Below are positions 1,671-10,484 of a DNA stretch of 34,619 nt, piece after piece. Positions within the stretch are counted from its first letter, which is position 1, and every line of letters starts with the position of its first letter. The notes beneath the pieces were generated by a model, which had not been told where the DNA came from, did not search any database, and saw nothing but the letters and a program-made list of their open reading frames with translations. This stretch comes from Gammaproteobacteria bacterium (GTDB lineage: Bacteria; Pseudomonadota; Gammaproteobacteria; RBG-16-57-12), in assembly GCA_021647245.1 (NCBI GenBank), contig JAKIVC010000030.1, forward strand, positions 1 to 34,619, given 5' to 3'. The translations under genes were made by a program, and so were the position numbers.

Positions 1671-1781
1671 ATTTCCTCCAACTTGACTCTAATTCTTGTT
1701 ACCACGAACTGAATGATATCAGCTCAACACCCCTCATTATCCCACACTCCACCCATTGGGCAAAACAGCCGTAAAAAGAGT

Positions 1782-1840
1782 AAAAGTTGAGGCGCGGCTC
1801 TCAAGCTTGGGAGCCGCACCGTCGCAATCACTCAACTTTT
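1782..1840. repeat. Nested inverted repeat between tyrS and the M23 peptidase gene
   Basis: An outer pair, AAAAGTTGA (1782-1790) and TCAACTTTT (1832-1840), encloses an inner stem GCGGCTC (1794-1800) / GAGCCGC (1811-1817) that extends to GG/CC at 1791-1792 and 1819-1820 across one mismatch. The plus strand could fold into a two-part stem ending in a T-rich run, so it may be a 5' leader structure, a small RNA, or a DNA-level repeat. Function unknown. Confidence 0.6.
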
Positions 1841-1907
1841 ATTATATAGTTCCAATATCAGAGAGTAGGCGCTTCGCTATAGTGTATGAAACAGCAACCA
1901 GGTCAAC

Positions 1908-3272
1908 ATGATTAATCACGACTTCAAATCTGGGAAACTAAAAAATCCCTCCGCCCTAAAAAACAGGCTCTCAACAACTCACTGGATACTATTAAGTTGC
2001 GGAATCCTGTTAGCTGCAGTGATTACCCTGCTACCAACAAACGATGCGGAGGCTACCCGTGCTGCAAGTAGCGATCACTTACCGCTAAAAAATCTCCAAT
2101 TAAGTATCCCGCCGCAAATTGAGTCCGTTGCAACCACGCCTACTAAGGAGAGTGCGCCGCCTACCTTTCAAGAGAACAATGTGACGGTCAAAAAAGGGGA
2201 TACACTTGCGGCCATCTTCAAGCGCGAAGGGTTTAGCCCTCGCGAACTGCACGATATAATGCAACTTGGGCCTGTAACGGCCGCACTCAAAGATATACGC
2301 CCTGGGCACTCTCTAGCGTTCCGCGCCGATAATACGAAACAATTAGCGGGACTGAGCTATAAAACGGATGCCACCCACACATTAATTATTGAGCGTGATA
2401 GCAAAGGCTTTAGCGCCCGAGAAGAGATACGCTCACCCGAGCTGCGTATTACACATGCCAGCGCCACCATTAGCAGCTCGCTCTACCGGTCTGGGCAACA
2501 GGCGGGACTTACTGATAACCTCATCATGGAGCTGGCGGGAATTTTTGGCTGGGACATTGATTTCGCATTGGATATACGCCAAGGGGATCGCTTTACCGTC
2601 CTTTATGAGGAGAAATACCTTGATGGTGAGAGGATAGGCTACGGCGATATCGTAGCCGCACAATTTACCAACAGAGGGAAAACCTTTGAAGCTGTCCGCT
2701 TCACCAATGCAAAAGGGGTCAACCAATATTTCACCCCCGAAGGACGCAGTATGCGGAAGGCATTCCTTCGCTCACCCGTCGACTTCCGGCGCATATCATC
2801 ACGTTTCACCCGTGAACGACACCACCCCGTCCTCGGCAAGAAACGCCCTCACCGTGGCGTTGACTATGCAGCCGCTACGGGGACCCCCATAAAAGCAGCG
2901 GGTGATGGTAAAATCATATTCCGAGGAACAAAAGGGGGTTATGGCACGACCGTAGTGATCCAGCACGGGACACAATATACGACGCTCTACGCTCATCTTT
3001 CCAATTTCAAACGCGGACAAAAAAAGGGTAGTTACGTTAAACAAGGCGATATTATTGGTTTTGTCGGCAGCTCCGGGCTTGCCACAGGGCCACACCTTCA
3101 CTATGAGTTCCGTGTCAATGGCACACACCGCAACCCACTGACCGTTAAGTTCCCAGATGCACAACCCATCAAGACCGCCTACAAAAAAGAGTTTTTGGCA
3201 CAAACCCAACCTATTTTGGCCCAGCTAAATGTTTTAAGCCGTGGCATTGCACTGGCCAAAAACAGCCTCTAA
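1908..3272 (+). CDS. M23 family murein DD-endopeptidase (MepM-like)
   Basis: Predicted membrane-anchored periplasmic peptidoglycan hydrolase of 454 residues that would cut peptide cross-links in murein. Residues 26-43 form one N-terminal membrane segment. An OapA/LysM-like region spans about 91-140 (VKKGDTL start), a Csd3-like second domain about 200-265, and the LytM/M23 zinc peptidase domain about 305-415, with the metal ligands H315xxxD319 and H396xH398. Start: ATG at 1908 with only a weak ribosome site. Its TAA stop shares one base with the ATG of anmK, so the two genes are translationally coupled; hydrolase and anhydromuropeptide-recycling kinase fit one cell-wall turnover unit. Pseudomonas has the same pair beside tyrZ. 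Confidence 0.93.
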   Translation: MINHDFKSGKLKNPSALKNRLSTTHWILLSCGILLAAVITLLPTNDAEATRAASSDHLPLKNLQLSIPPQIESVATTPTKESAPPTFQENNVTVKKGDTLAAIFKREGFSPRELHDIMQLGPVTAALKDIRPGHSLAFRADNTKQLAGLSYKTDATHTLIIERDSKGFSAREEIRSPELRITHASATISSSLYRSGQQAGLTDNLIMELAGIFGWDIDFALDIRQGDRFTVLYEEKYLDGERIGYGDIVAAQFTNRGKTFEAVRFTNAKGVNQYFTPEGRSMRKAFLRSPVDFRRISSRFTRERHHPVLGKKRPHRGVDYAAATGTPIKAAGDGKIIFRGTKGGYGTTVVIQHGTQYTTLYAHLSNFKRGQKKGSYVKQGDIIGFVGSSGLATGPHLHYEFRVNGTHRNPLTVKFPDAQPIKTAYKKEFLAQTQPILAQLNVLSRGIALAKNSL

Positions 3273-4399
3273 TGAGAGACAAAGCAACTCGCCGTGAGAT
3301 CTATATCGGCCTGATGTCGGGCACCAGTTTAGATGCCGTAGATAGTGTCGCTATCGAGTTCTGCAACGACCAACTCTCTCTCTTAGGTACTCTCAGCACT
3401 GAAATGCCAGCGCAACTGCGCAAAAAAATTATTGCATTATGCGCACCAGGCAATAATGAGCTGGAGCGATCAGGAGCGCTCGATTACCAGCTGGGAGAGC
3501 TCTTTTCAGATACAGTACTTCAGCTCCTCCACAAACAACAGCTCTCTCCAAACCAGATCACCGCCATTGGCAGCCATGGGCAGACTATACGCCACCGCCC
3601 GGACGCAAAACCGCCCTTCACAATTCAAATAGGCTCGGCTGCCGTGATTGCTCAGCGCACCGGAATCACCACCGTCGCAGACTTCCGCAGCCGTGACATT
3701 GCAGCGGGAGGAGAGGGCGCACCGCTAGTCCCAGCCTTTCATGCACTGTTATTTGACTCAGAACAAGAGCAGCGCTGCATTCTTAATATCGGTGGCATTG
3801 CCAATCTTACTTTTTTATCCGGCAAAGCAGGAAGCGTGGTGAGTGGTTTTGATTGCGGGCCCGGTAACTTATTGATGAATGCTTGGTGCGAACGCCATAT
3901 ACAGCAGCGTTACGACATTGATGGCCAATGGGCCAGAACCGGCCGTGTAGTGCAGCCACTTCTGGAGAGCCTACTCCAAGAAGAATACATCCAGCGCCCT
4001 CCACCAAAAAGTACTGGCCGTGAACTCTTTAACATTGAATGGCTTGACCAGCATTTAAAGGCATTTCCATCAACCTCTCCCCAGGATGTGCAGGCGACAC
4101 TGTGTGAGTTGACCGCCTCCTGCATTGCCATGGCGGTCAATAGACACCCCACTGCCATTTCAGCCGTATATGTCTGTGGTGGTGGGGCGCATAACAAACA
4201 ACTCATGCGCCGATTAAAGCAGCTACTAGAAGCTCCGTTCCTTCACTCCAGCAAAAAAATAGGCCTCGACCCTGATTGGGTAGAGGCCTGCGCTTTTGCC
4301 TGGCTGGCACGGCAAACATTAAATAGTGCCACGGGTAACTTACCGGAGGTGACGGGGGCGGAGCAGCCGGTCATTCTCGGCGCTATTCACCCTGTCTAA
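3272..4399 (+). CDS. anmK: Anhydro-N-acetylmuramic acid kinase
   Basis: Cytoplasmic kinase that opens and phosphorylates 1,6-anhydro-MurNAc released from murein turnover, giving MurNAc-6-phosphate for recycling. The 375 residues are the usual family length. The N-terminal ATP-binding signature GLMSGTSLDAVD is at residues 13-24, the RDIAAGGEGAPLVP block at 141-154, and the conserved GFDCGPGN with the presumed catalytic Asp194 at 193-200; a VCGGGAHN block near the C-terminus also fits the family. The ATG overlaps the stop of the upstream murein hydrolase by one base. The gene ends 16 bases from the convergent citrate synthase gene. Confidence 0.96.
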   Translation: MRDKATRREIYIGLMSGTSLDAVDSVAIEFCNDQLSLLGTLSTEMPAQLRKKIIALCAPGNNELERSGALDYQLGELFSDTVLQLLHKQQLSPNQITAIGSHGQTIRHRPDAKPPFTIQIGSAAVIAQRTGITTVADFRSRDIAAGGEGAPLVPAFHALLFDSEQEQRCILNIGGIANLTFLSGKAGSVVSGFDCGPGNLLMNAWCERHIQQRYDIDGQWARTGRVVQPLLESLLQEEYIQRPPPKSTGRELFNIEWLDQHLKAFPSTSPQDVQATLCELTASCIAMAVNRHPTAISAVYVCGGGAHNKQLMRRLKQLLEAPFLHSSKKIGLDPDWVEACAFAWLARQTLNSATGNLPEVTGAEQPVILGAIHPV

Positions 4400-6047: not shown

Positions 6048-6506
6048 TTAATGTGGGGCCTTCTCGTCAAGATAGCCCATTACGGCAGATTCTACCACGT
6101 CTTGCTGCTCTTTTACGCCAACCGCATCTTTCTGCTGCTGCTCCTTGGACTGATGAACCAGACTACCGTTCACTTCAGCTCCCATTGCCATTTCGAGAAG
6201 ATCATAATAGACATCGCCCTCCACTCGCGCTTCAGAAGCCAATTCAACACTTTCAGAAGAGTAAACATCTCCTTTTACCTTGCCATTCAGAACCACATGA
6301 TCAACCTGAACATTGCCTTCGATATAACCCTGCTTGCTAACAATCAGAGTCGACGTGCCTTCGCCATCAGAGACAATATTGCCAATAATTTTTCCATCAA
6401 CATGCAGACCACCGTTAAAGAGTAAGTCGCCATGGATGACGGTATTTGGGCCGATCAATGAGTCAATTTTACCATTGGCATTACTCTTTTTTTTCTTATC
6501 CCACAT
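6048..6506 (-). CDS. Bactofilin family polymer-forming cytoskeletal protein
   Basis: The 152-residue protein consists of a short basic N-terminus, a bactofilin (DUF583) beta-helical core at about residues 15-115 built from short repeats such as GKIIGNI, GNVQVDHVVLNGKVKGDV and EGDVYYD, and a charged Gln/Lys-rich tail. Bactofilins polymerise without nucleotide and localise cell-wall enzymes or define cell shape. The ATG at 6506 has GAGGTG upstream. It is in line with the coiled-coil membrane protein and erpA; the nearby M23 peptidase and anmK are wall-related, and bactofilins often work with M23 peptidases, so a functional link is possible but inferred. Confidence 0.92.
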   Translation of the reverse strand: MWDKKKKSNANGKIDSLIGPNTVIHGDLLFNGGLHVDGKIIGNIVSDGEGTSTLIVSKQGYIEGNVQVDHVVLNGKVKGDVYSSESVELASEARVEGDVYYDLLEMAMGAEVNGSLVHQSKEQQQKDAVGVKEQQDVVESAVMGYLDEKAPH

Positions 6507-7301: not shown

Positions 7302-8333
7302 CTAGGGCAGCAGTGCAACATGATCAATTCCTGCCGTCTCATCCAGCCCCAGCATAATATTCATATTGTGTATCGCTTGGCCTGCTGCCCCTTTGACTAA
7401 GTTATCGATAACCGAAAGAACCACCACAACATCACTGTTTTGTGGCCGGTGTATCGCGATGCGGCATAAATTAGACCCCTTGACACTGCGCGTTTCGGGG
7501 TGCGCTCCTGCGGGTAAAACATCCACAAAACAGTCATCTGCATAACGCTGTTCATAGAGTGCCTGTAGATCAACATCCCGATCAATAACAGTCGCATACA
7601 GTGTTGCATGAATACCACGCACCATGGGTGTCAGGTGGGGAACAAACGTCAACCCTACCGGCCTGCCAGCCTGACTGCTTAATGTCTGACAAATTTCAGG
7701 CTGATGCCGATGCCCCGGCACAGCATACGCTTTCATCGACTCACTCACTTCACATAGAAGGTGTGCGACGTGCGCTTTTCTCCCTGCACCACTCACCCCA
7801 GACTTCACATCTGCAATCAAGTGGTTCACATCAGCCAGGCCCGCTTCAATCAGCGGTAAAAACCCCAGCGTGGTGGCTGTGGGGTAGCAACCCGGATTGG
7901 CAATCAAGCGGGCATTTTGAATCGCTTCACGGTTGATTTCTGGCAGACCATACACCGCCTCATCGATCAACTCGGGGCAGGCATGTGGCATGCCGTACCA
8001 CTCACTCCAGAGTGACACATCTTTAATTCGGAAGTCAGCTGCCAAGTCAATAACCTTCACGCCAGCCGCCAACAGAGCGGGCACCATCTTCATCGCCACG
8101 CCATTGGGTGTAGCAAAAAACACCACATCGCACGATGCTAAAAGTGCCAGGTCAGGCGCTTTGAAAGGGAAGTCTACATGACCCCGAAGGTTAGGAAACA
8201 TCTCAGAAACCAGCACACCGGCATCAGCACGCGAAGTCACCGCAGCCAGGATCACTCCAGGGTGCTTTACCAGCAAACGCAGCAACTCAACCCCGGTATA
8301 ACCGGTACCCCCTACCACGCCTACCTTAACCAT
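7302..8333 (-). CDS. argC: N-acetyl-gamma-glutamyl-phosphate reductase
   Basis: Third step of arginine synthesis: NADPH-dependent reduction of N-acetylglutamyl-phosphate to the semialdehyde. The 343-residue protein has the N-terminal dinucleotide motif [14 protein letters not shown] (8-21), the catalytic Cys149 in ANPGCYPTA and the [11 protein letters not shown] block. The frame is open up to 8414, but ATG at 8333 gives the conserved [14 protein letters not shown] start and follows a GGAG ribosome site eight bases upstream, so the longer start is rejected. It lies 22 bases beyond the stop of the tri-haem cytochrome frame, so the two may be cotranscribed. Confidence 0.96.
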
Positions 8334-8355: not shown

Positions 8356-9258
8356 TTATGACTCTTTTTCCAACGGATAAAACGCCCGGTTAATGTAAGC
8401 GACCAGTGCGGCAATCTGCTCTGCCGTTAGCACTGATTTCCACGCCGGCATTTTGGTATCAACCACACCATCCTCGATCGCCTTGGTCAGCCGACTAGCG
8501 GTCATACCGGCCATCTGCTCCGGGTCAGTCAAATCGCGAGGCAGTGGCTCCAGGAAACTACCAATCCAATTTTTACCGGTGCCCGCCATGCCATGACAAA
8601 AAGCGCAGCCATCCTGAAACAGCGCCTCTCCTTGCTGCTCCTGCTCGGTCAGGTCATCAATAATGGGTTTGATGTCATGCTTGCCAAAAACAGAGGCTTC
8701 AGAAACCGCATCCGGCCTTACCGAGCGGTGTGAGTATCCGTTACGAGGGTATGAGACAGCCTTGGGAACCCATGCATCACCCTCATTTCTGACCTTACCC
8801 CGATCATGGCACGCCACGCAACTCTCCATAAAGAGTTTAAGCCCAGCGATCTGTTGCTCTGTGAGCGCCTCTTCCAGTGAATCTGTTGGGATTTCACCGG
8901 TTGCGAATGGGAACGCAATGGCATAACGCTCATGATCGGGCCAGCCATTTTTAGCGGTATGATAGCGTGTGTTATCACGCTTATTAAGCATAAACTCTTG
9001 CCGAGCAAACTCGACCACCAACTCAATTTCATCCGATGTTAACCACGCATCAAAGCTCTTCATAGCCGTGCCGGGCTTACCCAGCGTCACCACTTCCAGC
9101 ATTTTTTCTTTGGTTAACTTTAAGGGGTCAGTCGTGCGAAAGTTTCTTGGCTTTGGATCCAGATAGGTTGCCGCCTGAGTCACCGCATCACCTGAATAAC
9201 CGTGACAAAAATAGCAACGGTAGTTATAGATTGCTCGGCCCCGTTCATAGTCGGGCAC
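8356..9258 (-). CDS. Tri-haem c-type cytochrome, probable C-terminal half of a hexahaem protein
   Basis: 300 residues from a GTG at 9258, with three CxxCH haem sites (C15-H19, C147-H151, C218-H222) and candidate axial methionines in AMKSFDAWL and KMPAWKSVL. Covalent haem attachment needs export, yet this start gives no signal peptide and has no convincing ribosome site. The frame stays open upstream to 9393 and reads as plausible protein (YDPSEQIKQGGPILVAHSDY), but contains no ATG, GTG or TTG above 9258. The previous gene ends inside this stretch in the other frame, at a run of ten A. Most likely the sequence is the continuation of the upstream cytochrome, joined by frameshifting, transcript slippage, or a one-base indel in the data. 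Role: periplasmic electron transfer, partner unknown. Confidence 0.8.
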
Positions 9259-9374
9259 ACTCTTATTTTGAGAAATGCTGAGGTAGTCAGAGTGTGCTAC
9301 CAGAATAGGGCCGCCCTGCTTTATCTGCTCACTCGGGTCATACAGTAATACCGAATCAGCAGCAGGCTCAATGG

Positions 9375-10484
9375 CTACTCGTTTTTTTTTTGCTTAACTT
9401 TATCCAGATCCTCTTCGCTCACTCCCGGCATATCACTACGAATAAAGGCACGGAAGACAAACTCGGCAACATTAGCCACCTCTTGATCGCTCAGCACTTT
9501 ACTCCAGGCCGGCATCACACTCCCTGACAAGCCCTTATAGACAGCCTCATATATTTTGGGGCGATTCAGTGCACGACGAGAATCCGAGCTAATAAAATTA
9601 CGCGGTTTCGGGTTAATAAAGAAAGCACGGGGGCCTTGTCCGTCACCCTTCACGCCATGACAGACAAAACAGTTGCGAACAAAGATCTCCCGCCCTTCAT
9701 TAGGATCACCATAGAGTCCATTTGGAAAGGGGATTGACATAAACCGCTTGGGATCGTCAAATGCCAGCCCCGTTGAGGGGCTGTCTCGCCGAGACCCCTC
9801 CAGAATCGATTTCTCAGCCAGAACGGCCTCTACCGGCAAGCCCATTAAGGCAAGGCGGATATAGTCAACCATTGAGGAGATCTCTTGCTGGTTCAACCGC
9901 GAGCCATAGGGCATCATCGCCTTGCCTGCCCGGCCATAGGTGATTGACTCAATCATACGCTTGCGACTCAGCTCACCCTTGGTGCGATCAGTAGTAAAAT
10001 TACGCGGCGCCGTCGCCATATTGGAGCGCGTCCAGACGCCTGTCTCGCCAAAATCCCCATGGCAAACAGAGCAGTTGTCCATGTAGGTTTTCTCGCCTGC
10101 CTCCAGGTTAAGCCGTAGCTCTTCGGGAAGAGCCGCTTTTACTTCGGCGATAAAGGTATCGTATATGTAATCCGATACCTGCCTTATTTCATCACGACTC
10201 AAACGCGAATCCCAAGCAGCCATAGCGCTATTCGGACGCCCTTTTGTGGTGGAGATATAGATACGTATCGGGTCCAATTCAAATGCGCTCTGCATTGAAG
10301 TGAAATCACGGGGAGGAGGGTTTAATGTGCTGCCTCTGCCACCACCATCAATACCATGACACGAGACACAATGTTCTTGGTAAATACTCTCGCCAGTTGA
10401 AGCGGCAACAGCACTTGAAAAGCACAGCGCCAGAGCAAATAGCCCTCTAAAAAGAGCCGTAAAAAAAGTTTTATTCATCCCCAT
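9375..10484 (-). CDS. Exported tri-haem c-type cytochrome, probable N-terminal half of a hexahaem protein
   Basis: 369 residues. An Sec signal peptide (about 1-27, ending SSAVA) is followed by three haem modules with CxxCH at 39-43, 138-142 and 272-276. Each module contains a PRDF or PRNF block and a later Met-containing motif (MAAWDSRL, MMPYGSRL, VMPAWSKVL), so it is an internal repeat of mono-haem cytochrome c units. The long frame is open to 10583, but the signal peptide favours ATG 10484 (AGGT upstream) or ATG 10478. The stop lies just beyond an A10 run where the frame of the next tri-haem segment begins. Presumably a periplasmic electron carrier or oxidoreductase subunit; the redox partner cannot be told from the context. 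Confidence 0.88.
   Translation of the reverse strand: MGMNKTFFTALFRGLFALALCFSSAVAASTGESIYQEHCVSCHGIDGGGRGSTLNPPPRDFTSMQSAFELDPIRIYISTTKGRPNSAMAAWDSRLSRDEIRQVSDYIYDTFIAEVKAALPEELRLNLEAGEKTYMDNCSVCHGDFGETGVWTRSNMATAPRNFTTDRTKGELSRKRMIESITYGRAGKAMMPYGSRLNQQEISSMVDYIRLALMGLPVEAVLAEKSILEGSRRDSPSTGLAFDDPKRFMSIPFPNGLYGDPNEGREIFVRNCFVCHGVKGDGQGPRAFFINPKPRNFISSDSRRALNRPKIYEAVYKGLSGSVMPAWSKVLSDQEVANVAEFVFRAFIRSDMPGVSEEDLDKVKQKKNE
9382..9391 (-). other. A10 slippery tract joining two cytochrome frames
   Basis: On the minus strand the end of the first cytochrome reads CAA AAA AAA AAC GAG TAG. It contains the heptamer A AAA AAC in the zero frame, a known -1 slip site. A -1 slip, or one extra A in the transcript, continues as AAA CGA GTA GCC into the second cytochrome frame. 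A purine-rich AAGAGGA lies about 17 bases upstream. No strong downstream hairpin is obvious. A homopolymer sequencing error or a recent indel would give the same picture. Confidence 0.5.

Follow-up and report, generated by a model that had tools for sequence, protein, structure and literature searches.

A poly-A slip site in a gammaproteobacterial gene predicted to encode both a tri-haem and a hexahaem exported cytochrome c

A single cytochrome gene on the minus strand of a gammaproteobacterial contig (34,619 nt; "the window" below means this whole stretch) very probably yields two exported products, a tri-haem and a hexahaem cytochrome c, by programmed slippage at a run of ten adenines. When the zero frame is kept at this A10, translation would end at a stop one codon later, producing a tri-haem cytochrome c whose tail is rich in lysine. 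In a fraction of cases the mRNA would gain one A via RNA-polymerase slippage, or the ribosome would shift by –1 on A_AAA_AAA/A_AAA_AAC, and this shifted fraction would be read through the second frame to yield approximately 707–709 residues with six haem sites, the hexahaem product relying for export on the one signal peptide of the first frame. From comparison of genome sequences we infer slippage in the cell and the product ratio, with the polymerase at A9/A10 runs and the ribosome at the heptamer GGGAAAG, found in some relatives, as the chief routes. Two products from one gene, arising by –1 frameshift or transcript slippage, had been proposed in an earlier note made from the window alone, and the comparative evidence supports this proposal.

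The first frame, ORF1 (9375..10478, minus strand, 367 aa, with an alternative ATG at 10484), encodes a tri-haem cytochrome c with a predicted export signal and three PF13442 stretches. Its signal peptide, MNKTFFTALFRGLFALALCFSSAVA, inferred from the residue pattern of the translation, corresponds to 10404..10478, and haem sites 1 to 3, CVSCH (10356..10370), CSVCH (10059..10073), and CFVCH (9657..9671), all on the minus strand, are invariant in ORF1 alignment A1. The 3' end of ORF1 is AAG CAA AAA AAA AAC GAG TAG, where TAG (9375–9377) is the zero-frame stop, and the A10 slip site (9382..9391, minus strand) is read as CAA AAA AAA AAC in the zero frame and as GCA AAA AAA AAA CGA in the –1 frame. 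The second, –1 frame, ORF2 (8356..9393, minus strand, 345 codons), is also tri-haem and has neither a usable start nor a signal peptide; it extends without interruption from 9393 to its stop at 8356, the first ATG, GTG or TTG being a GTG at 9258. Haem sites 4 (CYFCH, 9202..9216) and 6 (CAFCH, 8593..8607) are invariant in ORF2 alignment A2, and site 5 (CVACH, 8806..8820, seen in the same alignment) lies in a cytochrome c-550-like module with a PF14495 match. The frames overlap by 19 nt (9375..9393, minus strand), and the shift must fall inside this overlap. Translation bears out the reading in the earlier note of ORF1 as having a signal peptide and a stop shortly after CAA AAA AAA AAC, of the second frame as lacking both a signal peptide and any ATG, GTG or TTG before 9258, and of three CxxCH sites in each frame; the PR(D/N)F-like block ascribed there to all six modules is clear in five, while the fifth (8806–8820) is of a type different from the others.

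The A10 at 9382–9391 is the longest homopolymer of the window, and the only other A/T run of at least 8 nt is found at 6487–6494. The sequence CAAAAAAAAAAC occurs once in the window, compared to 0.01 occurrences expected by chance, and the entire source genome (2.57 Mb) has 15 places with at least nine A's or T's (16 overlapping matches). The downstream neighbor of ORF2 is an argC-like gene with semialdehyde dehydrogenase domains by Pfam. The 8-nt run at 6487–6494 lies at the 5' end of a bactofilin gene (6048–6506, minus strand).

Both ORF1 and ORF2 belong to the cytochrome c family, combining CxxCH sites with Pfam PF13442/PF00034 profile scores above gathering (131.6 bits for ORF1 and 93.7 bits for ORF2; cut-off 27). 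By profile match, their CxxCH modules resemble those of PF13442/PF00034 c-type cytochromes (cbb3 subunit III-like), but, unlike these, neither ORF fits a named subfamily, every NCBIfam match being below its cut-off. A search of a plasmid collection produced weak and partial cytochrome matches only.

Relatives were collected by a class-wide search with the alignment of the ORF2 half (matches in 39 out of 369 genomes), by a phylum-wide search (24 out of 398), and by searching the whole of family f72, in which slip sites of both kinds occur (20/20 genomes); junctions of all fetched loci were read by one common procedure. The two-frame layout, with the second frame always at –1, is present in all 46 slip-site genomes, all of them Gammaproteobacteria, from 13 families, among which the ORF1 identity falls to approximately 41%. 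As the junction pattern recurs in 46 genomes, it is far beyond chance. Many of the surveyed genomes are draft or metagenome assemblies, and the A-run is present in many independent ones. The junction is A9 in 33 genomes (including locus L134, where the open –1 frame reaches far upstream), A10 in six, GGGAAAG alone in six, and A8 plus GGGAAAG in one, so that a junction run of about nine or more A's is conserved, with the GGGAAAG clade and the single A8 as exceptions. Two separately assembled congeneric genomes (ORF1 identity 93% and 79%) share the A10 and the offset of the window, and A10 is also present in a genome of the same family (ORF1 identity 52%). The earlier note had suggested comparing run length and frame continuity in related genomes, and no tract-bearing relative proves to have a run length that gives a single frame. 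In 34 of the 39 A-run genomes the zero-frame stop follows the run within 12 nt, and only three other A/T runs of at least 9 nt are found in 142 kb of surveyed gene regions. At two loci, L090 and L092 (genomes G078 and G205), ORF1 is limited to two CxxCH modules, and therefore the slip product there would be penta- rather than hexahaem.

For the A-run junctions, two published criteria give opposite answers: the conserved length of nine A's is a signature of purposeful polymerase slippage (Baranov et al., PMC1088944), while the conserved direction of the shift is a mark of ribosomal shifting (Antonov et al., PMC3711429). A variant of our explanation, in which all junctions, the A-runs included, operate by –1 ribosomal frameshifting with no polymerase slippage, is possible, if rather doubtful. 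It accounts for the direction, which is –1 in 46/46 genomes, for the in-phase A_AAA_AAN or G_GGA_AAG present in all overlaps, with A_AAA_AAN properly phased in every A9 and A10, and for the GGGAAAG clade, which should be ribosomal and has a GGAG-like element approximately 10–14 nt upstream of the heptamer, found at GGGAAAG sites only. Yet seven bases suffice for the ribosome, and neither A7 nor A_AAA_AAG is used at the junction in any of the 39 A-run genomes. Instead, a run of at least nine A's is kept in every codon phase seen (29 A9 runs are read as AAA AAA AAA, the other runs as GAA AAA AAA A, CAA AAA AAA AAC or GTA AAA AAA AAA), also in genomes of 60–67% GC, where AAA is often a minor lysine codon. 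Nor is there a consistent signal, at A-sites, of downstream RNA structure or an upstream Shine–Dalgarno-like element as general stimulators; downstream folding is mildly stronger than in the control, with scattered values (mean z –0.76), and at GGGAAAG sites shows no excess over the control. The constant direction fits the polymerase as well, since one A added to the mRNA likewise yields –1. Because these runs keep a length of at least nine irrespective of codon phase, RNA-polymerase slippage is probably the main mechanism at A-runs. The overlap in the GGGAAAG clade contains no in-phase X_XXY_YYZ motif besides G_GGA_AAG; as slippage by the polymerase is improbable at this site, these genomes would use ribosomal –1 shifting.

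On the ORF2 tree (72 rows), the GGGAAAG genomes fall into a single clade (98/93) inside the A9 radiation. Its sister group consists of loci with A9 alone (L128), A9 plus GGGAAAG (L127), and A8 plus GGGAAAG (L126), all three states coexisting within one genus. As these congeneric relatives retain A9 and both double signals, one slip signal has apparently been replaced by another, the offset being kept. In another genus, locus L131 has an A9 followed six bases on by an in-phase G_GGA_AAA, a second case of a double slip signal.

Genomes without the slip site provide a contrast in the organization of the two halves: in 18 of them the halves are separate neighboring genes, their offsets and gaps vary, and ORF2 begins with a hydrophobic leader, while in nine further ones ORF2 is present alone, again with such a leader. 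The leader hydropathy of ORF2, defined as the highest mean over 11 residues ahead of the first haem, reaches the threshold of 2.0 in none of the 44 slip genomes scored (L096, which begins at a contig edge, was left out), compared to all 27 genomes without the slip site; the split is complete, and its significance (Fisher p = 6e-19) is inflated by relatedness. Thus, the export signal is missing exactly where the slip site joins ORF2 to ORF1. Separate genes, each having a signal peptide, had been named in the earlier note as evidence against a joint product; such genes are found, but they are confined to lineages that lack the slip site (27/27), and this strengthens the case for two products. 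Moreover, 21 out of 45 slip genomes lack any start codon in the –1 frame upstream of the first haem, and only one of the 45 has an ATG there. The dN/dS ratio between close pairs is 0.03–0.24 for ORF2 and 0.04–0.19 for ORF1, so that purifying selection acts on ORF2 as it does on ORF1, pointing to translation and use of ORF2. A downstream frame under purifying selection, with no expression signals of its own, is what is expected of a programmed frameshift.

The same observations bear on the possibility that ORF2 is a gene in its own right, its translation being coupled to that of ORF1 or re-initiated past the ORF1 stop. Overlapping gene ends are indeed typical of coupled genes, and ORF2 is truly a separate gene in relatives without the slip site, but start codons are wholly absent in many of the slip genomes, the offset is always –1, as opposed to the mixed offsets of truly separate genes, and, as no slip genome scored has a hydrophobic ORF2 leader, a re-initiation product would have no way into the periplasm, where haem is attached. 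We consider this possibility very unlikely and reject it on the missing ORF2 starts and leaders.

Phase variation, with replication slippage in the homopolymer toggling the fusion across the population, is equally improbable. While homopolymers of such length are generally known to be mutable (see also PMC3711429), none of the 39 A-run genomes has the in-frame run length, a non-repetitive heptamer takes the place of the tract in one clade, and ORF2 is under strong purifying selection; the run lengths and the GGGAAAG clade led us to reject it. Sequencing error, or a recent indel mutation or pseudogene, has a negligible probability and was rejected as well: homopolymers are error-prone and the window comes from a draft assembly of 64 contigs, but the same layout is present in 46 genomes from 13 families with dN/dS well below 1 on both sides of the junction, contradicting the one-base indel and assembly error that the earlier note had listed as alternatives.

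Programmed slippage thus stands as the preferred explanation, and the rarity of true fusions has a bearing on its role. A single-frame hexahaem fusion is found in one genome only (locus L094, genome G193, ORF 1773–3764, with no A-run at the junction), although a one-base insertion in the A9 tract would create a permanent fusion, and so the short product seems to be required as well as the long one. For the history of the locus, we lean toward a scenario in which separate exported cytochrome genes became one gene, the slip site taking the place of the second start and signal peptide; the second half would then exist solely as an extension carried by a fraction of the first-half molecules, and later, A9 polymerase slippage would have given way to GGGAAAG ribosomal shifting via double-signal intermediates, with selection maintaining the supply of tri- and hexahaem forms rather than the mechanism. 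The 72-row tree does not decide whether A9 had a single origin, or whether slip-joined frames arose from separate genes or gave rise to them.

In its layout, the cytochrome gene comes closest to tssM of Citrobacter rodentium, in which transcriptional frameshifting at A11 produces two length variants, both of which, and their ratio, are needed (PMC4256274). There, too, an A-run lies just before the stop of the first frame, and added A's restore the frame, but tssM is an unrelated gene, and the phenomenon has been shown in one species and a Yersinia gene (PMC4256274), whereas the gene described here encodes an exported cytochrome, occurs in 13 families, and has two-gene relatives and a later switch of the slip signal. 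In dnaX (tau/gamma), A9 polymerase slippage in Thermus and ribosomal shifting in E. coli (PMC1088944) similarly achieve one outcome by the polymerase in some lineages and by the ribosome in others; however, the dnaX shift leads to the shorter product and the cytochrome shift to the longer one, and the cytochrome has retained intermediates of the switch in a single genus. Long products made by joining overlapping frames at A/T runs or heptamers are also known from orfA/orfB fusions of IS elements and from Shigella mxiE (PMC1088944), the former being mobile elements and the latter a regulator, and neither an exported redox protein. In the open-access literature, we have found no report linking slippage with a bacterial c-type cytochrome, although an undiscussed listing in frameshift surveys is possible.

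The comparative record of this gene is unusually complete, comprising two-gene relatives, slip-site relatives, one true fusion, and slip-signal intermediates, and the system offers a direct test of why recoding is kept over simple fusion. It also implies that standard annotation splits the cytochrome wrongly in dozens of environmental Gammaproteobacteria.

The genomic neighborhood differs between the two organizations: a divergent multihaem, usually pentahaem, cytochrome is located directly upstream in 40 of 45 slip loci and in none of 18 two-gene loci. This cytochrome mostly has a KHDFTG motif, and its Pfam matches are to doubled-CXXCH, cytochrome c7, and MtrC-like domains; the pentahaem KHDFTG type is found upstream, on the opposite strand, at loci L004, L005, L033, L037, and L068–L101. 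Where the flank read sufficed, an NHL-propeller protein adjoins the divergent cytochrome. Clusters for extracellular electron uptake also hold NHL-repeat proteins and doubled-CXXCH cytochromes (PMC10734462), and, as these neighbors recur there, our working guess is that the slip-site cytochrome may relay electrons through the periplasm, delivering them to an outer partner or receiving them from it. In the source genome the pentahaem cytochrome is on another contig (C6), and an A9 run is observed approximately 10 nt upstream of the start of its match (G000:C6:76897-76905, minus strand). At locus L036 the divergent cytochrome (7440–8075, minus strand, in reverse-strand coordinates) appears shortened, with three CxxCH sites, compared to L035, reflecting a frameshift or an assembly error; an 829-aa NACHT-domain protein, a candidate defence gene, is encoded near the same locus (L036:767-3256, plus strand).
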